A stretch of DNA of 34,400 nt from Nitrosovibrio sp. Nv4 (GTDB taxonomy: Bacteria > Bdellovibrionota > UBA1018 > CAIMNF01). A model generated the notes under the pieces. It searched no databases. It had not been told where the DNA came from and was given only the letters and a program-made list of their open reading frames with translations. The stretch spans positions 1 through 34,400 of the forward strand of contig CALPVV020000017.1 of assembly GCA_943327105.2 (NCBI GenBank), given 5' to 3'. Positions within the stretch are counted from its first letter, which is position 1. The number at the start of each line of letters is the position of its first letter. The translations under genes were made by a program, and so were the position numbers. This document shows positions 17,969 through 34,400 of the stretch, in pieces.

Positions 17969-19354
17969 ATGGTGGCTAAATTCGCCAAAACAGCAAGAAT
18001 TGCATTAATCAGTTCTCTCTTCGCATCCGGAATAACTCCGGTTGCTTACGCATCTATTTCCACTGAAACGTTTTCTGAAAAAGAAACGGCACCAATGGGA
18101 AATATCGGAATTGATTCTTCCAGTTTTCTTTATCGTTCAAATTCACGCGGAACCGCTGCGACTACTTTCAGTGCAAGCATTCACGGAGACTTCAAACACA
18201 AACTCGTGAAAGGCAAAGGCGATCTTCTTGCCAATAGTTTTGCGACCAGTAATCCGCAAGCAGTTGCTGAATCACACGAAGCTTATCTAACGAATAGTGA
18301 CGGGCTTTTGGGCAACCATCATGTTTCGGTTGGTCGTAAATATTATGAGTGGTCGAAACTCGATGAACAATGGACGATGATGAGCCTTTGGTCACCACGA
18401 TTCACTTGGGACCAAATTCACCCTGAATCAATCGGCATGACCGGTTTTTTCTACGACTACCAGACTACACGTTTCAAGTTTCTTGCTTATGGCTCCCCGA
18501 TTGCAATTCCTGAACGGGGAACGCCTGTAGAACAAAAAGATAAGAATATCGTTTCACCCAACCCATTTTGGAAACCGCTTCCAACCCAATTGAATGTTCT
18601 AGGCTCACCGACAACAATTGAATATTCCTTGATCATGCCTTCGATGCAAGAGTTACTACTTCGCCCGAATTTTGCGCTTCGTGCGCGATATGATTTTGAT
18701 AATGGAATGTGGTTCAGCTTGAATTCAGGCGTGCTTCCGATTCACATGGTTCAAATGGCCGCAGAACCCTATCTCGACACTGCAACGACCGGACAACTGC
18801 AAGTGAATATTCGTCCACAGTTTCCGATGAGAAACATCAACACTGCCGAAATCGGTTTTGATAGCCCGGATCAGGATTGGAACGCCTGGATTTCTGCAAG
18901 CTATGAACAACCATTCCGCTTTGAAAACCAATCGAACTGGCTGAATCCGATCATCACACCGACTTCGGTATTTTCAGGTGGAACCAAGATTCAACTGACT
19001 TCAAATTTCTGGTTTGACGGTTCCGCACTTTTTATTCATGAACAGGCATTCAAAAGCTCTGGAACATTGACTGATGTAAAAGTGAATCTACCCACCCGCT
19101 TTCCAATGAAGCAGGCATTCAAAGTCGGTGGCAACTGGAAGTTCAATGACTACACCCAAAGTAATCTTTCCTGGTATCAAGATTTGATTGATCAGAACCA
19201 CTTGATTTCGGTTGATGTTCAACACCGCCTCCATCATCTACCAGTAACGATTGGCGCGGGCACCGATATCATCGTCGCGAAAACGGCTCAAGGCGGTGTC
19301 GGACAATATTACGGAGACGATCGTCTTCGGGGATGGCTGAAGTATGCGTTTTAA
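17969..19354 (+). CDS. Putative outer-membrane beta-barrel protein
   Basis: N-terminal signal peptide, alternating amphipathic strands with many Trp/Tyr/Phe, C-terminal ...RGWLKYAF ending in Phe. Confidence 0.7.
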   Translation: MVAKFAKTARIALISSLFASGITPVAYASISTETFSEKETAPMGNIGIDSSSFLYRSNSRGTAATTFSASIHGDFKHKLVKGKGDLLANSFATSNPQAVAESHEAYLTNSDGLLGNHHVSVGRKYYEWSKLDEQWTMMSLWSPRFTWDQIHPESIGMTGFFYDYQTTRFKFLAYGSPIAIPERGTPVEQKDKNIVSPNPFWKPLPTQLNVLGSPTTIEYSLIMPSMQELLLRPNFALRARYDFDNGMWFSLNSGVLPIHMVQMAAEPYLDTATTGQLQVNIRPQFPMRNINTAEIGFDSPDQDWNAWISASYEQPFRFENQSNWLNPIITPTSVFSGGTKIQLTSNFWFDGSALFIHEQAFKSSGTLTDVKVNLPTRFPMKQAFKVGGNWKFNDYTQSNLSWYQDLIDQNHLISVDVQHRLHHLPVTIGAGTDIIVAKTAQGGVGQYYGDDRLRGWLKYAF

Positions 19355-21638
19355 GTCATTACTAGTAATTTCTACAATTGCGCTATCTGGTTGCGGACTG
19401 CTGGGTGAAAAAAACAAACCCACTGAAGGAAGCACCGTCGGCGGCACCGGCTGTCTCGATAATTCAAAAGACCTGGTTGGTCGTTATGTTTCCGGAGAAA
19501 TCAGTCAGCAGGAATGGAAAAGCGCATTCGATTGCATCAACCAATCCCTCGGATTTTTCACTGATTATGTTCGTGGAAGCAATCAAGATTCTTACAGCCA
19601 GGGTGACATGCATACCCTCATCACTCGGTTCCTGATCACCAATCGACCGGTTCAGCGCGAACTGATGCTTGGTGCATTCAATCTAAAAAGAGCATTATTT
19701 GGTGGTAATTCGAATAGTTTCACCAAAGAACAGATTGAGTTGATGAAAAGCTCACTTAGTCGCCTGGAAGGGATCACGTCTGACCTGATCCCTTACCTGC
19801 AAACCAGAACAAAATCGAGTTCTTCTTACGATGACCTTCTGGAAATGAATGCAGCATTCAAGCGCGCGGGCGAGCAATTGGGTGATTTTGTAAAAACACT
19901 CCCGGTTGGCGACCTTAGCGAAGAAGCAGTGAGCATTTTATTCGAACAGCTCGCGCAGACCCTTGACCTTAAACTGATTGATGGTCTTGACCGTAAACTG
20001 TTTCTTGCCAAATGGATGATGTTCAACACCCGCAAAGATGCGATTGAACGAACTGACTGGCCTCAATTCTTCCGTTCTGCCTTGACCCTGAGTGGCTTGG
20101 CACTTTCACTCAAAACATCAACTACGACTAAAAATTTTCAAAATCAGAGCACCATGGATCGAGTTCTCAATGACTATCAATACCGGGAATTCGTATGGAA
20201 ACTCGTTCTAGAGACCAAACCTCTGATCATCGAATCGCTCACCCAACACAATGGCAATACACCATTTCCGATTTTCGACCGCTTGATCGACGAAATTCCT
20301 GACGATATTTTGAATGGCATTCCGAAACGGGAAATAAAAGACATGATCCGCCCGCTGGTGCGCAAGCTTTTAATGTCAAAGTCACAAACGGGTGTAGATG
20401 CAAATGTGGTTAATACCATCTTTACGCTACTTGAAAACATCGTTCAAGATCTTGGCATGATTGATCGTTTTTATGAAAGTACGGGCCTGGATACCCTTGA
20501 AGTTCAAGATTCAGTTTATAAAATCTCTTTGAACCAATACGAGAATTCACTCAATGGTCCTGAAAAAACGAGATTCACCGAACTGAAAAACACGATCCTG
20601 ACTTATAAACCGATGTTTTTTCGCGATTCGAATTCAATGATGTTTCAAAATGGTATCGGTTATTCGCGAATCCAGAGTGTCATTGTCGTTACCTTGAATC
20701 GATTCTTGAATCATCTTCACCGTACCTACGGTAGTGGCGATGGATTTTTCACTGAAGATGATTTCAGGGGAATCCTGGATGAACCGGCTTATAAGGCGAT
20801 TTTGAATTCCCTGACCTGGGTTGATGCAACGGTTCCTCGTTTTTACGCTAAACGCTTTCAAGACATCGACATCTTCACTCCGATCAGCGATGGCAACAGC
20901 AAGGCCACGATTCCTGAGATCATTCATTATGCCATCATGGTGATGTCTGCCGGCAATCTGACCACGAAGATGCGCAACGAAATCACACCTCGTTGTGATC
21001 AGAACCTCGGTCAAGATTTGATGGGCTGGACGTGGATTCCCGTTCAATGCTTCCGCAATGAGTTTTATAAAAACCTTTCTTACTGGCTTACCTACTTCCC
21101 AAGAGTGAATGCATATTGGGCAACACTCACGCCTGAGCAAAAAGCGAAGGCTGCGATCTGGCTTGAACACGGCTCCAGACGTAACGGTTATGGTGAGTCA
21201 GACGCATCCAATGACTGGGTAGGAAAATACGATTTTGGCTCAACTGCGGCAGTCCTTCATTACACCGAATCTCTTTTCACCCGATTCGACGCTGACAGCT
21301 CGGAAGTCCTTTCCAAAAGCGAGCTTGGAAAAGCGTATCCAGTCTTCAAAAACCTAATTTATAAGAAGGCGAAAATTTCAAACAAAGACTACGTGTTAAA
21401 AGGAATTTTCACTTACATCGTAAAATACCGTTCCATGCCTGCCTTGAACAGTGGAAGCGGGATCGGTAAACTCGGCTGGTGGCTAGCATCTTATACGATG
21501 CAAAACTATTCAGCTGACCGCCTCGGTGTTTTCAACATTGTCTGTCAGTTGGCCACACCGGAAAACACCAGACCAAATCCGAACGACCCGACCAGCTCTG
21601 AAGATCCGGATGCGACGAACGCCCGTATCTGCCAATAA
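19344..21638 (+). CDS. Large lipoprotein with EF-hand-like Ca-binding motif
   Basis: Lipobox IALSGC; DADSSEVLSKSE 12-residue EF-loop-like segment; second partial GDGFFTEDDF; overlaps the barrel gene by 11 nt. Confidence 0.8.
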   Translation: MRFKSLLVISTIALSGCGLLGEKNKPTEGSTVGGTGCLDNSKDLVGRYVSGEISQQEWKSAFDCINQSLGFFTDYVRGSNQDSYSQGDMHTLITRFLITNRPVQRELMLGAFNLKRALFGGNSNSFTKEQIELMKSSLSRLEGITSDLIPYLQTRTKSSSSYDDLLEMNAAFKRAGEQLGDFVKTLPVGDLSEEAVSILFEQLAQTLDLKLIDGLDRKLFLAKWMMFNTRKDAIERTDWPQFFRSALTLSGLALSLKTSTTTKNFQNQSTMDRVLNDYQYREFVWKLVLETKPLIIESLTQHNGNTPFPIFDRLIDEIPDDILNGIPKREIKDMIRPLVRKLLMSKSQTGVDANVVNTIFTLLENIVQDLGMIDRFYESTGLDTLEVQDSVYKISLNQYENSLNGPEKTRFTELKNTILTYKPMFFRDSNSMMFQNGIGYSRIQSVIVVTLNRFLNHLHRTYGSGDGFFTEDDFRGILDEPAYKAILNSLTWVDATVPRFYAKRFQDIDIFTPISDGNSKATIPEIIHYAIMVMSAGNLTTKMRNEITPRCDQNLGQDLMGWTWIPVQCFRNEFYKNLSYWLTYFPRVNAYWATLTPEQKAKAAIWLEHGSRRNGYGESDASNDWVGKYDFGSTAAVLHYTESLFTRFDADSSEVLSKSELGKAYPVFKNLIYKKAKISNKDYVLKGIFTYIVKYRSMPALNSGSGIGKLGWWLASYTMQNYSADRLGVFNIVCQLATPENTRPNPNDPTSSEDPDATNARICQ

Positions 21639-24602: not shown

Positions 24603-26027
24603 ATGAACTCAAGGAAGATCGCAATATTGCCCCTAATTTCGCCTTTGGCACTAAGCTTTGTTTTGAGCGGTTGTCTTACCGGTGAGAACAAAACATTTTT
24701 TGACTATCGAATCGACGATACCGAATCGGCAGATGGAACTCAAAACGGTTCAGCTTCTGCAGCAATGCCTGGCAGCAACTCCAATCAAAATTTAAATCAA
24801 GGCACAAACCATTCTGGTCTTTGCTGCAACATTGAAACCGCTTTGTTGGTTCCTGCAAATCAAACCGGCTGCGATCGAGGCATTGCACTCGTCCCCTCTG
24901 GGTCTTTAGAAGAATGTAAAAATCTTACATTTCAAAATGGGATACAAACTACCCGTTTGACAGAAAGATTCACCATTTCAAATAACCCCGTTAAAAAAAT
25001 TGATTTCCTTTTCGTTGTCGATAACTCGGGCAGCATGGCCGACAACCAGGCAAAACTAGCCGCGGGATTTGAAGCGTTTGCAAACAGTTTTTTTCGACGT
25101 GACGACTTGGACATTTGCATTTCAATCATCACTAGCGATCGCTATCTGGGCAGAAACAATGGAAGCAACTATGCTCGCGAAAGAACCGTACCCTGCACCA
25201 ATCCAGGAGCATGGAGTTCACTCTCCCCAGCCCTCAAAAATGCATACATTGACCAGATCATTCGAGAATTTAAAACCAAAGTCAATGTGGGCACTCGTGG
25301 AAGCGGAACCGAACTCATTGGGAAATCACTAGTCACCTATCTTCATGATTTGGATCAATGGAATGAAAACCAACTAAACCAGGGAGTAACTCGCCGATTT
25401 TTTAGAACAGACTCGGTAGTGAATATTTCGATTCTCACGGATGAGAACAACTGGTTTTATCGAGACCCACAAAGAGATGAATTTCGTAATGATCTTCCAG
25501 TTACCAGAAACGCTCCAATTTACAACTCACCAATTTCAATGATTGACCCAAGAAAAGGGATCAAAGAGTACCTTGATGAATATTTTTCAGCAATTCAACC
25601 CACACATCCTCTCACCTACTCGGTATCCAGTTTTCTTGAAATCACCAAGGGCCCCGACACCATTCCAGGACTTGCAAAAAACCTTGACCTCTTGGGAAGC
25701 ATGATTGGACGTGAATCAGCGAAAACAGACATTGGAGGAAACAGCAGAAGCTTTACTGATCTTTATCAATCGATTGCAACGAATCTGGTAAACCGTGCGT
25801 CTGCCTTCCATTTAAGCCATGCGATCATTGAGCCACAAGTGCCGCAATCAATACAAGACCTTTCAGTTGTACTGGTTAGAGCAGATCAATCACGCATTCA
25901 ACTGGTATATGGAACTGATTTTACAGTATTGATGCCGGATGGGGTGATTTTGAATCAATCCATTCTCGACACTTGTCAACCGGGTGATTCTCTTGAAATC
26001 GAATATCGCCATCTGATCCAAAACTAA
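24603..26027 (+). CDS. von Willebrand factor A domain lipoprotein (CglB-like candidate)
   Basis: Start at 24603 with RBS GAGGAGG; lipobox FVLSGC; vWA MIDAS DFLFVVDNSGSMADNQAKL; several Cys in the mature region. Confidence 0.88.
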   Translation: MNSRKIAILPLISPLALSFVLSGCLTGENKTFFDYRIDDTESADGTQNGSASAAMPGSNSNQNLNQGTNHSGLCCNIETALLVPANQTGCDRGIALVPSGSLEECKNLTFQNGIQTTRLTERFTISNNPVKKIDFLFVVDNSGSMADNQAKLAAGFEAFANSFFRRDDLDICISIITSDRYLGRNNGSNYARERTVPCTNPGAWSSLSPALKNAYIDQIIREFKTKVNVGTRGSGTELIGKSLVTYLHDLDQWNENQLNQGVTRRFFRTDSVVNISILTDENNWFYRDPQRDEFRNDLPVTRNAPIYNSPISMIDPRKGIKEYLDEYFSAIQPTHPLTYSVSSFLEITKGPDTIPGLAKNLDLLGSMIGRESAKTDIGGNSRSFTDLYQSIATNLVNRASAFHLSHAIIEPQVPQSIQDLSVVLVRADQSRIQLVYGTDFTVLMPDGVILNQSILDTCQPGDSLEIEYRHLIQN

Positions 26028-26041
26028 TTGAGGATTAAACA

Positions 26042-26725
26042 ATGAAAAACAATAAAACACTTTTAATCACAATAGTAATAATGGTCTTGATTGGAACAGC
26101 AATCCTCATCAAAAAAACAAGACCAGATTCAATTACGGTAAAGAACACAAAAGAAAACACGGAAACAGTTTCAGAGATAGTAGCTGAAGATGAAGGTGAA
26201 ACAAAGACACAAATAAACAAGGATGAAAAATCAAATGAGAATAGAACCGAAAAACAAGCAAATACTTGTTACAAAGTTGAATTCAAACATCTTGAACAAA
26301 ATCAGAAAAGGGATATTGAAGAATTTACAAATGAACTGAATGCATTCTTGATTCCTGAAAACGATGCAAACCTGAAAAGTGTATGCGTAAAAGTAAATCA
26401 AAAACCGGTAATGCATAAAATCAGAAAAAAAGGAACAGCCCATGAAGTATGGATCGGATCTGTTGTAGGACCTGATTCAAAAATAGAACTTTCGTACTGC
26501 CTAGGCACCACCAGCTGTAAAGAGGCATGCAAGGTAAAAGTGGAAAACAAAGTAGATGAACTTTTGAATGAAGAAGAAATGGCTGGATTAGGAGATCGGA
26601 ACCTGGAAGTAAAGGTGAATGAGCTTAGAAAAGTAGCCAGCGCGAACGAACAACTTCTCGATTCTTCAGTGATTCGCGAATGGAACAAAACAGGAATGCA
26701 GGAATGGTCCTGCAAAAGACAATAG
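26042..26725 (+). CDS. Bitopic protein with charged linker and six-Cys C-terminal domain, unknown function
   Basis: Single N-terminal hydrophobic segment LLITIVIMVLIGTAILI, Lys/Glu-rich linker, Cys in NTC/SVC/SYC/TSC/EAC/WSC; lies within a dense operon. Confidence 0.75.
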   Translation: MKNNKTLLITIVIMVLIGTAILIKKTRPDSITVKNTKENTETVSEIVAEDEGETKTQINKDEKSNENRTEKQANTCYKVEFKHLEQNQKRDIEEFTNELNAFLIPENDANLKSVCVKVNQKPVMHKIRKKGTAHEVWIGSVVGPDSKIELSYCLGTTSCKEACKVKVENKVDELLNEEEMAGLGDRNLEVKVNELRKVASANEQLLDSSVIREWNKTGMQEWSCKRQ

Positions 26726-26748
26726 GATAACCCAAAAGGAACGATTTT

Positions 26749-27393
26749 ATGAGTTTGATCGAATTTTTAAAAAATAATTTTTTTCATGTAGCGCCAATAT
26801 TAATGAGTGGAGCAATTGCAGGTGTAATCATATTCGAAAGATTTCAAACACTTTTCAAGACCTACACACTCGAGAACACAGAAGGATTCCTGAAGCAGAT
26901 TCAAGCTTTGGTAACAAAAGGAAAAACAAATGATGCACTTGCTCTTTGTCTTCAATACCAGGGCAAACCAACAGCAGAAGTGGTTAAAGCAGCACTCGAA
27001 AGAGCCAACCAACCTGAAGAATTGGTCATGAATACAATTGAATTCACCAGGAACCAATATGCAGAAAAAATACAAAAAAGAACCAATTACCTGGCAATGA
27101 TCGCCAATGTTGCAACACTACTGGGGTTACTCGGCACTATTGCCGGCCTGATTGAGTCATTTTCAGCAGTTGGACACGCCGACCCCCAACAAAAAGCAGC
27201 ACTACTTGCAAACGGAATTTCGACGGCGATGAATGCAACCATGCTTGGACTTGCAGTAGCCATTCCGTGCATGGTGATTTTCAGTTTCTTTATCAATAAG
27301 GCAAATCGACTGATTTCAGAAGTCGAAGCAGGTGGAATGACCGTACATGATTCACTGCAGTTTTATTCAATGAATGGAGGAAACCATGAATAA
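26749..27393 (+). CDS. MotA/TolQ/ExbB proton channel family protein (AglR-like)
   Basis: Three hydrophobic segments; NVATLLGLLGTIAGLIESFSAVGHADPQQKAALLANGISTAMNATMLGLAVAIPCMV signature. Confidence 0.95.
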   Translation: MSLIEFLKNNFFHVAPILMSGAIAGVIIFERFQTLFKTYTLENTEGFLKQIQALVTKGKTNDALALCLQYQGKPTAEVVKAALERANQPEELVMNTIEFTRNQYAEKIQKRTNYLAMIANVATLLGLLGTIAGLIESFSAVGHADPQQKAALLANGISTAMNATMLGLAVAIPCMVIFSFFINKANRLISEVEAGGMTVHDSLQFYSMNGGNHE

Positions 27394-27829
27394 CCCGAAT
27401 TCAGAAAACAATGATGTTGAGTTGAATATTACTCCCATCATTGACTGCTTTACCGTACTCATCACTTTCATGCTGGCTTCAGCAAGTTTCATCAGTATCG
27501 GTTTTTTTGAAGCTTATACTCCTGGACCGGGTACAGATGCTTCTGCCGTCAAACCGGACATTGAAGCGAAACTAAAGATTAAAAAAGATCACTCGGTAGA
27601 ATTGAGTTGGAACGGCAAAAAAAACGGATCATTCAGGGTAGAAAACACAAACATCGAAAATCTTTCACAAATCACGAAAGAACTGGAAAAGCTGAAAACT
27701 GAAAAAATGGTCATCAATCAAGTCATCATCAGCGCAGTCGATCAAACCACCTATAAGGAACTGGCAGCAGCAATGGGCGCGGTACAAAAATTGGAAATTG
27801 CTGCTGTAGTTGGCGATTTCGAGGAATAG
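27386..27829 (+). CDS. ExbD/TolR family protein, first copy
   Basis: VELNITPIIDCFTVLITFMLAS with TM Asp; start 27386 with GGAGG RBS; 8-nt overlap with the ExbB gene. Confidence 0.92.
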   Translation: MNNPNSENNDVELNITPIIDCFTVLITFMLASASFISIGFFEAYTPGPGTDASAVKPDIEAKLKIKKDHSVELSWNGKKNGSFRVENTNIENLSQITKELEKLKTEKMVINQVIISAVDQTTYKELAAAMGAVQKLEIAAVVGDFEE

Positions 27830-27833
27830 TAAA

Positions 27834-28307
27834 ATGAAAATAAGAAAGCTCTTTTCAAGAAAAAAATCAAAACCGAGCCCTGAAATGTCCTTGCAAATCA
27901 CATCAATGGCCGATGTTTTCACGATATTGCTCGTATTTTTACTGAAAGGGCTTGCTTCGGACGTACTGCAAATCACACCGGCAAATGCAACCCGACTACC
28001 CTCTTCTGCTCTAACTAAATCCATCACTGAAAATGCAATTCAGATAGAAATCACCAATACAGAAGTCATGGTTGAAAAAGACCCGATCGGTACTCTTGAT
28101 CATTTCAATGAGCAATTGAATGAAAGATTGAAAATCGAGCGAAAGAAACAAGAATTGATTTCGAAATCAAATGAAAGCGTAAAAAACGATGCAAGAGCAA
28201 TTGTCATCGCAGATGAAAAAACACCGTATCAAACCATCAAAACCGTTTTAAGATCCTTATCGGCAAACGGATATTCAGAAATCAATTTTGCAGTCATGCA
28301 AGAGTGA
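27834..28307 (+). CDS. ExbD/TolR family protein, second copy
   Basis: MSLQITSMADVFTILLVFLLKGLASD with TM Asp; periplasmic ExbD-like AIVIADEKTPYQTIKTVLRSLSANGYSEINFAV. Confidence 0.92.
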   Translation: MKIRKLFSRKKSKPSPEMSLQITSMADVFTILLVFLLKGLASDVLQITPANATRLPSSALTKSITENAIQIEITNTEVMVEKDPIGTLDHFNEQLNERLKIERKKQELISKSNESVKNDARAIVIADEKTPYQTIKTVLRSLSANGYSEINFAVMQE

Positions 28308-28320
28308 ATAAGGAGTACCT

Positions 28321-31206
28321 ATGCTATTCATGATTCTATGCTTAACACTGTTCAAAACGGATCCAGCTGAAGCCATCGAGTCGTCTTTAAAATCAAAAGA
28401 ACTTGCCGCAATGAGGACACAAGACCAATCAATAAAAAAATTACAAACTTTCATTTCTTCACACCCAGGTGACCTTCGTGAAGGGGAATTCCTGAATCGG
28501 TTGGCTGACCTTTATCTTGAAAAATCAGGAATCAGTTTTCAATATACTGAAGGTGAATCAACTAGAACTAGCAAACAGCACTATCAGAATTCATTAATTA
28601 AAGCAGTCAATGCTCTTACTCAACTGATTACCAAGCATCCAAGAAATGTAACAATAGCGGAGGCCTACTTCAAAAGAGCTAAAGCTTTTAAAGAACTTCA
28701 TCAAAAACCATCTGCAAGGAATGATTTCATTCACTTAGTACAAAACTATCCCGATTTTCCAAGAATCGACACGGCTTTAATTGATTTAGCCACATTCGCA
28801 CAAGATGACAATCATCATGAAGAAGCATTGATGCATCTGAACATACTTAAAAAAATAGAGGATAGCCCTTACTTGACCATCGGTTACCGAAAATCAGCAT
28901 GGAGTCATTTTAATCTTGGTAATTATCAAGCGGCCATCAATGACATTGAAAAGGAGATCCACCTCTATCCGAATGATGGAAAAGAGCTACATGAAGTTGA
29001 AAGTGCCTATACAGATCTGGCGTTATTCATATTTGAGTCGATCAACAAAAAAACAGAATTAGGAACGATTGATCAGGCAAATAAGACCATCGAGGCAATC
29101 TGTTCAATTCGTTCAAGCGCCAAAAACAATTCATGTCATGGAATAAGCTTCTTAAAGCTAGCAAAACTCCTAAAAGCATATCAACTGGGAAATTCGTTGG
29201 AAGCACTGAAGGAATCATTAATAAGAAAACACATTCTGCTACCTGAGACGCTTCAAATCACTCTTTTATTGAATCAATTTTGGTTTGAACGACATGAATA
29301 CGGAAAGTTAGCTGGGATCATAGAAGAAGCGATCAACGTTCAAAATGAACAAAAACTGAATCAAAGCGAGTTGATCATCAGGACCATCAAGCAATCAATA
29401 GCAGAGCTACATGAATTGGTATTGAAAAACAAAAAATCAACTGAAATCGAAAAACTCATCATTCCATTAGATTCACTCACTCAATTGCTATGCAAAGAGC
29501 TTAGATCAAATACCCCTGAACGAGCAGAATTTATATTTTCAATGGCAGAAACAGCATTCGCAATCAAAAATCATACGTTGGCTAACCAATACTATGAAAA
29601 ACTGTTGAATGAAGATCAGAAATTGCCTGAAAAGCTGAAAAGGAATGAAATCAAGCGCCGACTGATATCATCTCAATATCAGGAATTAAAATCAATAAAG
29701 CCTGCTTTAGTAGAATTTGAAATCAAAAAAATTGGTGAATCTCTTATTTCCATTAAAAAAGAGAACAAACTACTCATCGAAAAATGGGTTACAGACACCC
29801 TGGCTCTCTTGAATGACAAAAGCAATGAAACAGAAGCTTTTCAATTGGAAGCCCTTAAATTGATGTATCTCTACCTTGATCGCTCCAGTGCGATTGAAAA
29901 AATGGTAAAAATTTCCTTCAGTTCAGAAGCTGACGAAATCAGACAAAACATGGCTTCTATCGCTTTTGATACTTATTCGATTTCAAATAAAATTGATCAA
30001 TTAATCGAACCCTGCCAGTCGGGCACATGGCTTAAAATCACTAAAATAGCAGAACCATGTACCTTGATTATTGCAAAAGCCTCCATCTTGGAAAATAAAC
30101 TCAAAAAAGCAGAATCAATACTTAAATCAATCAAACCAAATCATTCGAATCAGGAAACACTAAAAACAGTTTCACTTTTAAATGCTGAAATTCACAGAAA
30201 ACAAGGAGAACTACGGCAGTCGATTGATGACCAGGAAACTTATCTTGAGCTAACAGGCTGGAAAGATTCTGAAATGACCAAAACTGTTTTTCAGTATCAT
30301 TGGCTTCACAAAAACTTGAATAAATATTCTGAAATGATGGTTTCACCACGAATCAAATCAGCATTAACCGATTCGTATTTGGATCAATATCGGGCTGCGA
30401 TGATATTAGAAACATCAATAAAGGAAAAATTAAAAAACAACACCGAGTATCAAAAACGATTCAAGGCGAGCATAAAAAGCCAAAAAAACACGGCTTCTTT
30501 ATGGGCTCTTAGCTGCTTGAATAACTCAAAAAAACTTCCTTATCAAGATCGCATGGTATTGCTTCAAAGAACTGCCAATAACTGGGAATATCTTGATCCA
30601 TATCTGCAAATCCGCTATTTGGCACTGATGCAAGCAAGATTAGGTGAAACAATTGAGTCACTCAGAAAAGACGCCAGATCAATTGCCCCGATTCGTACAG
30701 ACATGCAAAGCGTTGAAAAACGAATGACGCTATTGCGTGAAATCGATCTTGCATTCAGTAAGGCGATGAATTTGGATTGGTTTGAAATCAAATTTAAAAC
30801 AATGAACGAGCTTCAACTGGTTTTTCAAGATTTAATCCGCGAGTTAAATCAGATCAATGCCGGTGCTGATGCAATCAGACCGTTTAAAACCAAACAGGAA
30901 GAAATCACAAAGGGAATAGAACAACTAATCAGTTTGAATTCAAAAGCCATTCATCCAATTATTGAGAATGCATTACTAGAACCGGAAACCTTAAAACATA
31001 TTCCGGATGAATTGCGAAGTGAATGGACCCGAGCTACACAAAAAAAAGAAGCGGATTTGCTTCATTATCTGATTTCTATCCGTAAGCATGATCAACAATC
31101 AGATGCACTCAGAGGATTAGTTTTAATTACTCTTTTGCATGACTCAGCGAAAGTTGAAGGTTTTCAATTGATCAAAGATAAATTCGCAATGGGGACTACA
31201 AAATGA
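28321..31206 (+). CDS. Large TPR-like secreted/periplasmic protein
   Basis: Hydrophobic N-terminus; repeated helical segments such as EAYFKRAKAFKELHQKPSARNDFIHLVQNYPDFP and YRKSAWSHFNLGNYQAAINDIEKEIHLYPND. Confidence 0.85.
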   Translation: MLFMILCLTLFKTDPAEAIESSLKSKELAAMRTQDQSIKKLQTFISSHPGDLREGEFLNRLADLYLEKSGISFQYTEGESTRTSKQHYQNSLIKAVNALTQLITKHPRNVTIAEAYFKRAKAFKELHQKPSARNDFIHLVQNYPDFPRIDTALIDLATFAQDDNHHEEALMHLNILKKIEDSPYLTIGYRKSAWSHFNLGNYQAAINDIEKEIHLYPNDGKELHEVESAYTDLALFIFESINKKTELGTIDQANKTIEAICSIRSSAKNNSCHGISFLKLAKLLKAYQLGNSLEALKESLIRKHILLPETLQITLLLNQFWFERHEYGKLAGIIEEAINVQNEQKLNQSELIIRTIKQSIAELHELVLKNKKSTEIEKLIIPLDSLTQLLCKELRSNTPERAEFIFSMAETAFAIKNHTLANQYYEKLLNEDQKLPEKLKRNEIKRRLISSQYQELKSIKPALVEFEIKKIGESLISIKKENKLLIEKWVTDTLALLNDKSNETEAFQLEALKLMYLYLDRSSAIEKMVKISFSSEADEIRQNMASIAFDTYSISNKIDQLIEPCQSGTWLKITKIAEPCTLIIAKASILENKLKKAESILKSIKPNHSNQETLKTVSLLNAEIHRKQGELRQSIDDQETYLELTGWKDSEMTKTVFQYHWLHKNLNKYSEMMVSPRIKSALTDSYLDQYRAAMILETSIKEKLKNNTEYQKRFKASIKSQKNTASLWALSCLNNSKKLPYQDRMVLLQRTANNWEYLDPYLQIRYLALMQARLGETIESLRKDARSIAPIRTDMQSVEKRMTLLREIDLAFSKAMNLDWFEIKFKTMNELQLVFQDLIRELNQINAGADAIRPFKTKQEEITKGIEQLISLNSKAIHPIIENALLEPETLKHIPDELRSEWTRATQKKEADLLHYLISIRKHDQQSDALRGLVLITLLHDSAKVEGFQLIKDKFAMGTTK

Positions 31207-31457
31207 GACAGCTTATTATTTTCATACTGGTTGCTTCAATCGGCTCACAAGCACTGAGTGCAGATCTTAAAAGATCTAAATCGATCAATTTCGAAGATGA
31301 ATTAGTCGAAGGAATCAATCGTAAACCGCTGGATAGCTTCAACCAGATTTCTGAACTGAATGAATCAAAGAATCGTCATCTTTATCGTAAACGATCTACT
31401 TTTGCAGATCGAAATCGTTCCCTTCTCAAGGACATGAAGAATGGAGACACACCATGA
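31203..31457 (+). CDS. Small secreted protein of unknown function
   Basis: 84 aa, signal peptide MRQLIIFILVASIGSQALSA; ATGA overlaps on both sides with operon neighbours. Confidence 0.7.
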   Translation: MRQLIIFILVASIGSQALSADLKRSKSINFEDELVEGINRKPLDSFNQISELNESKNRHLYRKRSTFADRNRSLLKDMKNGDTP

Positions 31458-32560
31458 ATACCGCTGAAACTTTTCGCATCATTCATCAAAACAAGAACTA
31501 TCTTTGGAAATCAGGACAGGCTATCTGTATTCGGGATCAGTTTATTCTAGAACTTAAACAAGGATCCATGATGATCCGTGATTTGACAAGAATCTCAACT
31601 GAAAAAACAAAAATCAAAATGGAACGTCTGCCTGTCGGAAACGAAATTGTTCATATTAAATTGGAAAATGACTATTCGTTCAAAATCATGAAAATGATAC
31701 GCCCCGAACCAGCAAGCAATGACATAGCCCTCAAACTCGCACCTTTCGCTACCATACCCGAAAAAGCTGTTAATCAGGAAGATCGGATCTTTATTAACAG
31801 GATAAAGCAAATAGCGGCAGCTTCCACTTTGGCTTGTTTATTGTTCATGTTTCTCAATTTAACAGATAATCAAACCACTCCGGATGAACAGCTGATTCCA
31901 AAGAAATTTGCAAAATTAATCCTTAAAAAACCAACTGAGTTGAATCCACATTCCAGTCAAGGGGGAGCATCCATTGCAAAGGCGTTCCAGTCTAAAAGTG
32001 TTCAACGAAATTTAAAAAGCGTTTTGCAGGGTGGCCTTTCAAAATATTCAATTATGACAACAGGCAGATCAATCCAAAGCCTCAGCATGAAAATGAGCAA
32101 ACAAGGAAATAACAGCCTCGCCTCATTAGAAGGAAAAGCAAGTCAGATGATCGGCTCACTTCATGCCGGTGGTTATGGTACAGGTCAAGGAATCAGCATT
32201 AAAGGACAGGGACAAGGACAACTTGAAATCGGGCTGAACTATAAAGATGCCATTGTGGACGAAGGCCTGACTAAGGAAGAAGTTGCAAAAGTGATTCATA
32301 GCCACATGAACGAAATCAGATACTGCTATGAGTCTGCAATCCAAAACGACCCATCGATTGCCGGAAAAGTTTTAGTTGATTTTAAAATTGGGTCCCGCGG
32401 ATCTGTAGCGGTGGCACAAACGGCAGCAAACACAATGAATAACGCTCAGGTGGGTACCTGTCTCATTGGAAAATTGAAAAATTGGAGATTTCCTGAACCC
32501 CGAGGAGGCGTACAAGTTGCAGTTACCTATCCGTTTCTATTTAAGAGTTTGAATCGATGA
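31454..32560 (+). CDS. TonB-like AgmX/PglI C-terminal domain protein (GltG/GltJ-like)
   Basis: One internal TM (IAAASTLACLLFMFLNL), C-terminal GLTKEEVAKVIHSHMNEIRYCYESAIQNDPSIAGKVLVDFKIGSRGSV...GTCLIGKLKNWRFPEPRGGVQVAVTYPFLF. Confidence 0.9.
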   Translation: MNTAETFRIIHQNKNYLWKSGQAICIRDQFILELKQGSMMIRDLTRISTEKTKIKMERLPVGNEIVHIKLENDYSFKIMKMIRPEPASNDIALKLAPFATIPEKAVNQEDRIFINRIKQIAAASTLACLLFMFLNLTDNQTTPDEQLIPKKFAKLILKKPTELNPHSSQGGASIAKAFQSKSVQRNLKSVLQGGLSKYSIMTTGRSIQSLSMKMSKQGNNSLASLEGKASQMIGSLHAGGYGTGQGISIKGQGQGQLEIGLNYKDAIVDEGLTKEEVAKVIHSHMNEIRYCYESAIQNDPSIAGKVLVDFKIGSRGSVAVAQTAANTMNNAQVGTCLIGKLKNWRFPEPRGGVQVAVTYPFLFKSLNR

Positions 32561-34008
32561 AAAATGGAGTTTTTATGATATACATTATATTTTTTTTCAT
32601 CCTTACTCAGTCAATTTCTGCCACGGCAGCCACCGTAATGGATGCCTGCGGAAATCATGAAAAGTGGGAGTTCAAGGATGAACGACATGGCAACTGGATG
32701 AATCGCTATCAGGCGTTCCTTTTGAAACAAGAATCACCCTGGATGGCTTTTTCCGACTCTATTCAATTGAGAAAAACGAGCCGCATTTTATCAAACGGAA
32801 CATTCGAGTCAGATTTTTCAGAGTATTGGGTTGGAAAGATCTTTTATGAGTTGGGCCTTCACTCACTGGCACAGGAGTATTTTGAATCATCTTCTGAACA
32901 TGCAAAAACGGCTGTAATCAAAAATGCTTCACGAATTTGCATCAATAAAATCAATCAGGGATTGAAACCAAAAATCGACCAGAGCGACCTTACTCATCTA
33001 CTTCGTGCTCGAGAACTTTATTCTTCAAAAAAAATGAATGAGTCTGTGGCTGAATTTCAAAAAATCGATAAACGCTCTAATCTCAAAATTGACGCACTAA
33101 GTGACTTATCATGGGCATACCTTCACCTGGAGCATTATCAAGAAGCCGTTGGAATCGCACTTCAACTCAGGAGCGGAATATTCAGAAATACTTTTGCTCC
33201 GGAAAGCATGATGGTTGCGGCAATGGCTCTGAATGAAACCTGTTCTTATCAAGACGCATCCCGTATGATTCAATTTTTCATTCAGGATTACGGTAATTCC
33301 TTTGATTGGTTGGTACATTCAGAAAAGGGATCTGAACCATATCATGAAATCTTATCCGGTCTGAAAAACCAGTCTTCAGTTCCAGCTAAAATCAGAACCG
33401 AGTGGGTTAAACATCCTGTATTTCTTTCCCGTCAGGAACAGATTAATCGATTGATTGAAAATCATCGAAAAATTATTGGAATGCCTTCAAAAATACAGTC
33501 TTTGAAATCGGATTTAACCAACAAGAATACGATTAAAATATCAAAGTTGCTTTATGATGTTAAATCCAGAAAAAACGATTCGATTTCATTGGCAAAAAAA
33601 TATCAGGAGATCAGAAAAGATATCCGCACATTGATTCGATTCAACCGCTCATCGAAAACACTTCTTTCGGTAGTTCAAAAACACGACGCAACCATACCTG
33701 CTGCTCAATCCAAACACGTTGCAAAAATCAATCATGAACTACATGAGAAAAACCGTGAACTTCTCACTCACCTTAAGAAAATCAGGGAAAACATCGATTT
33801 AATAGAAGTAGAGATCTACCACGGAGCTAGCAAAGACATGCTTGGATTGAAAAAATCATTAAAGAAGAAAACCGACCTTCAAAAAGATTTTGATACCGCA
33901 GTTGCATGGAACTGGGGAAGCTTTTCAGCTTCTGAATTGGAACGTGCAGAAATCTGGGAAGACGAGATTGGCGCCCTGAAGGCTGATACTAAAAATCACT
34001 GCAACTGA
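32557..34008 (+). CDS. TPR-like secreted protein
   Basis: Signal peptide (M)IYIIFFFILTQSISATA; TPR-like ALSDLSWAYLHLEHYQEAVGIALQL; coiled-coil C-terminus. Start 32557 or 32575 (the latter has a better-spaced GGAG). Confidence 0.82.
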   Translation: MKNGVFMIYIIFFFILTQSISATAATVMDACGNHEKWEFKDERHGNWMNRYQAFLLKQESPWMAFSDSIQLRKTSRILSNGTFESDFSEYWVGKIFYELGLHSLAQEYFESSSEHAKTAVIKNASRICINKINQGLKPKIDQSDLTHLLRARELYSSKKMNESVAEFQKIDKRSNLKIDALSDLSWAYLHLEHYQEAVGIALQLRSGIFRNTFAPESMMVAAMALNETCSYQDASRMIQFFIQDYGNSFDWLVHSEKGSEPYHEILSGLKNQSSVPAKIRTEWVKHPVFLSRQEQINRLIENHRKIIGMPSKIQSLKSDLTNKNTIKISKLLYDVKSRKNDSISLAKKYQEIRKDIRTLIRFNRSSKTLLSVVQKHDATIPAAQSKHVAKINHELHEKNRELLTHLKKIRENIDLIEVEIYHGASKDMLGLKKSLKKKTDLQKDFDTAVAWNWGSFSASELERAEIWEDEIGALKADTKNHCN

Positions 34009-34025
34009 AATCAAGGAGCAAAAAC

Positions 34026-34400
34026 ATGCAATACTATCTTTATCAACCAGGACAAATCGACGGACCAATCGACTCCAACCGATTGGAAGAACTGAAAAAA
34101 TCCGGGAAATTGCGCCAATACCATTGGATGATCGACAGCGAATCACAAATCTGGAAATCAATCAGCGATGCCCCTACTGAAAATCCATTCGAAACAGCTC
34201 AGCGAACCATCCGCGGACGACTGATTTCAGGTGCTTTTATTCTTGCTAATGAAGCCTATAGCGGTCGAATTACGAATTTAAGCTCATTTGGAATTGAGTT
34301 GATGATTCCTCAATTTCGTAAATTTTTACGTGGAATCAATCAATCCAAAGCACTCATGCTCAATATCTGCGATGAGACAAATCAGGTATTTGTTAATGTG
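34026..34400 (+). CDS. GYF_2 (DUF4339)-PilZ-like protein, truncated by the window edge
   Basis: Open frame from ATG 34026 (not in ORF track): MQYYLYQPGQIDGPIDSNRLEELKKSGKLRQYHWMIDSESQIWKSI (GYF_2-like), then RTIRGRLISGAFILANEAYSGRITNLSSFGIELMIPQF (PilZ-like). Confidence 0.75.
   Translation, partial: MQYYLYQPGQIDGPIDSNRLEELKKSGKLRQYHWMIDSESQIWKSISDAPTENPFETAQRTIRGRLISGAFILANEAYSGRITNLSSFGIELMIPQFRKFLRGINQSKALMLNICDETNQVFVNV

Follow-up and report, generated by a model that had tools for sequence, protein, structure and literature searches.

The window analysed here, that is, the whole stretch of 34,400 nucleotides, constitutes the entire contig C17 of a 2.3-Mb genome assembled into 137 contigs, and it closes (positions 24603–34400) with ten plus-strand genes which, as called, overlap or nearly touch each other at intergenic distances of −20 to +23 bases. 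This spacing, with all ten open reading frames present on one strand, bears out the sequence-only reading of the region as a single operon; the accompanying statement that the operon continues beyond the window can be kept only by inference, contig C17 cutting it at base 34400. The gene list proposed at that stage holds, by profile matches, for the channel subunit, the two ExbD/TolR proteins, the TPR component, GltG and the vWA protein. The GYF and PilZ domains of the last, truncated protein were recognised via homologues, with no Pfam match to either domain in the truncated protein itself. In what follows, the lineage to which the operon is assigned is called system I, and two further lineages of the class are called systems II and III.

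Components of the operon

The first gene (24603..26027, +) encodes a vWA/MIDAS lipoprotein, a predicted surface adhesin, which (i) carries the lipobox LSGC at Cys24, (ii) exhibits a DxSxS MIDAS motif (DNSGS) at residue 140, and (iii) matches the NCBIfam CglD vWA region at about 2e-8 to 4e-8 and the MIDAS adhesin family at 7e-4; a PDB search with this protein as query returned no match. By a by-eye count, the gene is present in 8 and missing from 6 of the 14 system I loci whose region is intact: it lies inside the block in the window and its closest relative, is absent from the other same-genus loci with an intact region, and is found again in several other families. The second gene (26042..26725, +) codes for a bitopic protein which, based on homologues across system I operons, their alignment and a structural model, can be regarded as a hallmark of system I. 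It comprises one transmembrane helix, a low-complexity linker and a periplasmic β domain, and six cysteines (C76, C115, C153, C159, C163 and C224) are invariant in the alignment of system I homologues. Its β core is modelled with confidence (pLDDT about 90), and Foldseek yielded no PDB match at E ≤ 0.001; hits to collagen-binding and other chains were dismissed as being at chance level (best E 0.05), and a match to farnesoic acid methyltransferase, below cut-off, was likewise treated as chance.

The three motor genes follow. The AglR-type proton channel subunit of the MotA/TolQ/ExbB family (26749..27393, +) is identified by PF01618 (MotA_ExbB; 1e-26) and by its position in the Agl clade, and the AglQ-type (27374..27829, +) and AglS-type (27834..28307, +) ExbD/TolR proteins by PF02472 (3e-14 and 2e-16, respectively) and by alignment. 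Both possess a conserved membrane aspartate, Asp24 in the former and Asp27 in the latter, counted for the AglS-type protein from the ATG at 27834, with a TTG start at 27810 being possible. Profiles, alignment and Asp position thus agree in providing the two ExbD/TolR partners with membrane Asp that an Agl/Glt core requires.

Downstream, a 961-residue periplasmic TPR protein (28321..31206, +; TPR_6 1e-8, YbgF 2e-10) is kept in system I operons and occupies the position of GltD. It resembles a Myxococcota GltD-type protein only marginally (9e-6), and its putative identity as GltD derives mainly from position and TPRs. No open reading frame for GltE lies between this gene and the next, the two overlapping by 4 bases. 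The latter encodes a small secreted, GltF/CglF-like protein of 84 residues (31203..31457, +) which matches GltF/CglF weakly (CglF 0.026), its counterparts by position in systems II and III matching at 2e-10 and 1e-7. It is followed by GltG (31454..32560, +), for which the sequence-only reading as an AgmX/PglI-domain protein holds and a GltG type is supported by profiles, tree and architecture: the GltG profile NF033760 matches at 4e-37 over the C-terminal 200 residues, compared with only 3e-10 for GltJ, and the AgmX/PglI C-terminal domain NF033768 matches at 9e-31, above its curated cut-off. The model of GltG consists of an N-terminal β domain (residues 6–80), a transmembrane helix (103–137), a disordered linker and a C-terminal α/β domain (257–365). 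Foldseek relates it to TonB C-terminal domains and to Rv1747 FHA-1 with probabilities of up to 1.00, at E values of 0.01–0.02 (best 0.011) and none below 0.001, and Pfam detects no FHA domain at the sequence level. The model is thus to be taken as support rather than proof for an architecture of degenerate FHA fold, transmembrane helix, disordered linker and TonB-like C-terminal domain. The ninth gene (32557..34008, +) encodes a GltC-like TPR protein (NF033756 7e-15, below the equivalog cut-off).

The last gene (34026..34400, +), cut by the contig end, encodes a GYF plus PilZ-like cytosolic protein, as indicated by homologues (about 155 residues at full length) and their alignment. Among these, GYF_2 matches at 0.0026 in L048, and a system II protein matches GYF_2 at 2e-24 and PilZ at 5e-13; GP and W are invariant. 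Of the PilZ motifs for c-di-GMP, RxxxR and (D/N)xSxxG, the window protein has NLSSFG but no pair of arginines. Both motifs are missing from most homologues in system I and present in system II, which suggests that c-di-GMP binding by the GYF-PilZ protein has probably been lost in system I.

Phylogeny and distribution of the Agl-type motors

In the channel-subunit tree, the window motor, other motors of the class and the Myxococcus motors M1 and M2 form one clade (100/100), apart from TolQ/ExbB of E. coli and of the genome itself, and the Agl clade is recovered at 100/100 also in the tree of concatenated R, Q and S subunits. The Myxococcus loci derive from the genome labelled Myxococcus xanthus strain AM003; M1 and M2 were identified there by similarity and by gene order and size relative to Table 1 of PMC3169522. 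The trees support the earlier proposal of an Agl/Glt-type machine insofar as the ExbB-like protein clusters with AglR. The more specific claim, kinship with the Myxococcus gliding motor itself, is not supported: the R+Q+S tree places system III, not the window motor, within M1 AglRQS (100/99), system I forms a separate clade (100/99), and the AU test rejects a clade made up of systems I and III only (p 0.0009). A system I plus M2 clade, which receives no support in the free tree, is not rejected (p 0.125), and neither is system I as sister of M1 and III together (p 0.23). Based on these tree positions and tests, the window motor belongs firmly to the Agl family but is not orthologous to the gliding motor. 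We thus assign the window operon, from the sequence comparisons, to a lineage of its own, the orthologue of AglRQS being system III elsewhere in the genome. GltG likewise separates systems I, II and III into supported clades, without support for the order in which these branch. Pairwise, R and S of M2 are nearer to system I than to system III, and GltG of the Myxococcus G4 cluster prefers the window GltG. The Glt proteins of the Nfs sporulation machine (G3) are related to those of the window operon, but Nfs and system I are not joined in the GltG tree.

Among the 63 genomes of the class, system I R proteins (at least 150 bits to the window R) were counted by eye in about 45, often in two to three copies. 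A second R type is near-universal in these 63 genomes, with the genome's own copy on contig C101, and system III is rarer (about 12 of the 63). A 9-contig genome of the order, G050, combines two system I loci with one locus each of systems II and III. System II of relatives comprises a GltG of about 640 residues, a GltC reaching 5e-30 at best, and a protein of the GYF-GYF-PilZ type. The GYF domain of the latter hits 7z3c, the solved domain of AgmX (GltJ), at 3e-6, and scores 6.5e-14 against the GltJ family. In the window's own genome, two open reading frames of 194 and 423 residues make up the system II GltG (L053:8425-10317; G000:C19), relatives having a single one of about 640 residues; this may be a frameshift, an assembly error or a real split. 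System III, in which a vWA protein of the MIDAS family lies next to GltC, appears to be split across two contigs (L012 and L054; G000:C65 and C45).

Boundaries of the operon and its relation to described systems

Same-genus relatives have the block between lipoprotein, MnmC and glycosyltransferase genes on one side and response-regulator and radical-SAM genes on the other, and there it closes with a gene for an outer-membrane β-barrel of 233–277 residues, which in L045 scores 87.5 bits against a family-profile cut-off of 60. In four near-complete genomes of the genus (G006, G007, G012 and G015) these same flanking genes adjoin each other, their called ends overlapping by 25 or 83 bases. Since exactly this block is lacking between the same flanks in four relatives, the operon is delimited; since these near-complete genomes are devoid of system I, it is also dispensable. 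The four group together, with support, in a tree built from two flanking proteins, and therefore a single loss or a single non-gain suffices. G+C content is low in the operon of the window (0.389 against 0.457), amounting to about 0.36–0.40 over 26000–34400 versus about 0.46 upstream, but this was dropped as a sign of transfer because the contrast is not seen at this locus in relatives. Upstream of the locus, a 764-residue lipoprotein (19344–21638) is conserved in the genus; its match to EF-hand is weak and falls below cut-off.

The earlier description of the operon as a rearranged relative of the gliding machine, or as a new system, turned out to be too strong. Luciano et al. (PMC3169522) reported a core complex of AglRQS, GltC, GltD, GltE and GltG, with four expanded sets in Bdellovibrio, and found it in a single gene cluster in all non-Deltaproteobacteria and in Geobacter. 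Bdellovibrio bacteriovorus HD100 has four agl/tonB-like operons (Bd0412-0420, Bd0828-0838, Bd1473-1483 and Bd2368-2377; PMC2797640, PMC3169522), which, judged from published descriptions, are of the same kind as the window operon. With four such operons published, the kind is already known and the window operon adds a member. Within or at the third HD100 operon lie the PilZ gene Bd1482 (PMC3271064), the aglQ gene bd1480, which is induced on surfaces (PMC9140294), and the gene for the MIDAS lipoprotein Bd1483, deletion of which leaves predation unaffected (PMC11003981). Bd0828-0838 has been reported to be closest to AglRQS (PMC3169522) and is, for this reason, more likely to represent system III.

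When compared with AglRQS and Glt of Myxococcus xanthus (M1, G1, G2), the window operon shares the motor type, the GltG architecture, GltC, a GltF-like protein and vWA proteins, and the operons of its relatives share an outer-membrane barrel with the gliding machine. However, its motor falls into a separate clade, it lacks a GltE gene and recognisable GltH, GltI and GltK, the FHA domain of its GltG is degenerate, and GYF is part of a separate PilZ-like protein, not of GltJ.

Possible function

Taken together, we consider it quite probable that the products of the operon form a single machine of the Agl/Glt family which transduces force across the envelope and represents a lineage of its own. 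This reading is based on (i) gene content and spacing, the position in the Agl clade (100/100) and the GltG architecture, (ii) conservation of the operon in the majority of the class's genomes, its presence or absence as a whole block and the barrel in a relative, and (iii) reports that proteins of comparable B. bacteriovorus clusters rise at defined stages of predation (PMC12546842), together with the surface induction of bd1480. Against it stand the four same-genus genomes devoid of the operon, the fact that it is not the AglRQS orthologue, the intact motility of Myxococcus M2, G4 and G5 mutants (PMC3169522), the GltD identity of the 961-residue protein, drawn mainly from position and TPRs, and the lack of the vWA gene in six of the 14 system I loci with an intact region. 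In such a machine, the AglR/Q/S-type subunits, in which channel and membrane-Asp residues are present, would conduct protons and, as known for the family, move GltG with its FHA-like, transmembrane and TonB-like domains assigned from model and profile. GltG would then act via the periplasmic TPR proteins (the one in GltD position and GltC) and the GltF-like protein, presumably upon an outer-membrane β-barrel which is present in relatives and would here have been lost with the contig end. Where present, the vWA/MIDAS lipoprotein is likely to be the surface load, passing force to substrate or prey cell, and the GYF-PilZ protein may serve as a cytosolic docking part. The output is most likely force exerted on an adhesin or envelope complex, which could serve movement on surfaces or inside prey, or contact with prey. 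A role in motility is plausible for the window operon, and against it one may hold that these Myxococcus M2, G4 and G5 mutants show no motility phenotype.

Alternative explanations differ mainly in the task assigned to the machine. That the operon is a gliding motor proper, functionally equivalent to Myxococcus AglRQS-Glt, appears unlikely to us: motor, GltG, GltC, GltF-like protein and vWA lipoprotein are indeed present, relatives add the outer-membrane barrel, and Bdellovibrio does glide, its gliding-cluster genes responding to surfaces (PMC9140294), but the same genome harbours the AglRQS orthologue as system III (L012/L054), four same-genus genomes are devoid of system I, and system II and the near-universal motor type occur in same-genus genomes without it. 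We regard as an appreciable possibility, somewhat short of probable, that a specialised paralogue fulfils a non-motility task, be it transport of polymer or envelope material as by Nfs in Myxococcus sporulation, where Nfs was shown to act together with AglRQS on the polymer of the spore coat (PMC3858216), or envelope work at a prey stage. The functional divergence of Nfs and other paralogues (PMC3169522, PMC3858216), the two to three copies of system I in many genomes and the differing predation stages at which B. bacteriovorus clusters peak (PMC12546842) are in keeping with this, although the vWA adhesin genes within several system I operons fit surface force better. A TonB- or Tol-Pal-like energiser of nutrient uptake or envelope integrity, which the ExbB/ExbD domains and the TonB-like C-terminal domain might suggest, is highly improbable and was rejected on the basis of trees and gene context: the motor branches apart from TolQ/ExbB, Tol-Pal-like and ExbB/D loci of the genome's own exist elsewhere, and two ExbD genes with GltC and GltG do not make up a Ton set. 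A nearby TonB-dependent receptor, named at the outset as evidence for a nutrient-uptake motor, is not found near the operon, and neither is Pal, the two receptors of the genome being located on other contigs.

Returning to the preferred reading of a force-transducing Agl/Glt machine, it is tempting to speculate, if only tentatively, that system I is an ancient third Agl-type lineage specific to Bdellovibrionota which, with the six-Cys protein as its own part, exerts force on an envelope complex for prey contact or inside prey rather than for gliding. In a non-exhaustive check of the literature, we found no published description of the sorting into lineages, the delimitation by an empty site, the six-Cys hallmark or the separate GltJ-type GYF. 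The Agl/Glt operons of the class are now sorted into lineages with the AglRQS orthologue named among them, a complete machine is delimited by the empty site, and the six-Cys and GYF-PilZ proteins are named as parts that can be deleted. Moreover, the group does have a GYF domain of GltJ type, as a separate PilZ protein, although Bdellovibrio has been reported to lack GltJ itself (PMC3169522). In the genome at hand, a GYF-GYF-PilZ protein (L053:7612-8415; G000:C19) that has a GYF of GltJ type and the canonical motif for c-di-GMP adjoins the system II GltG and is a candidate for coupling c-di-GMP to a Glt machine that is widespread.
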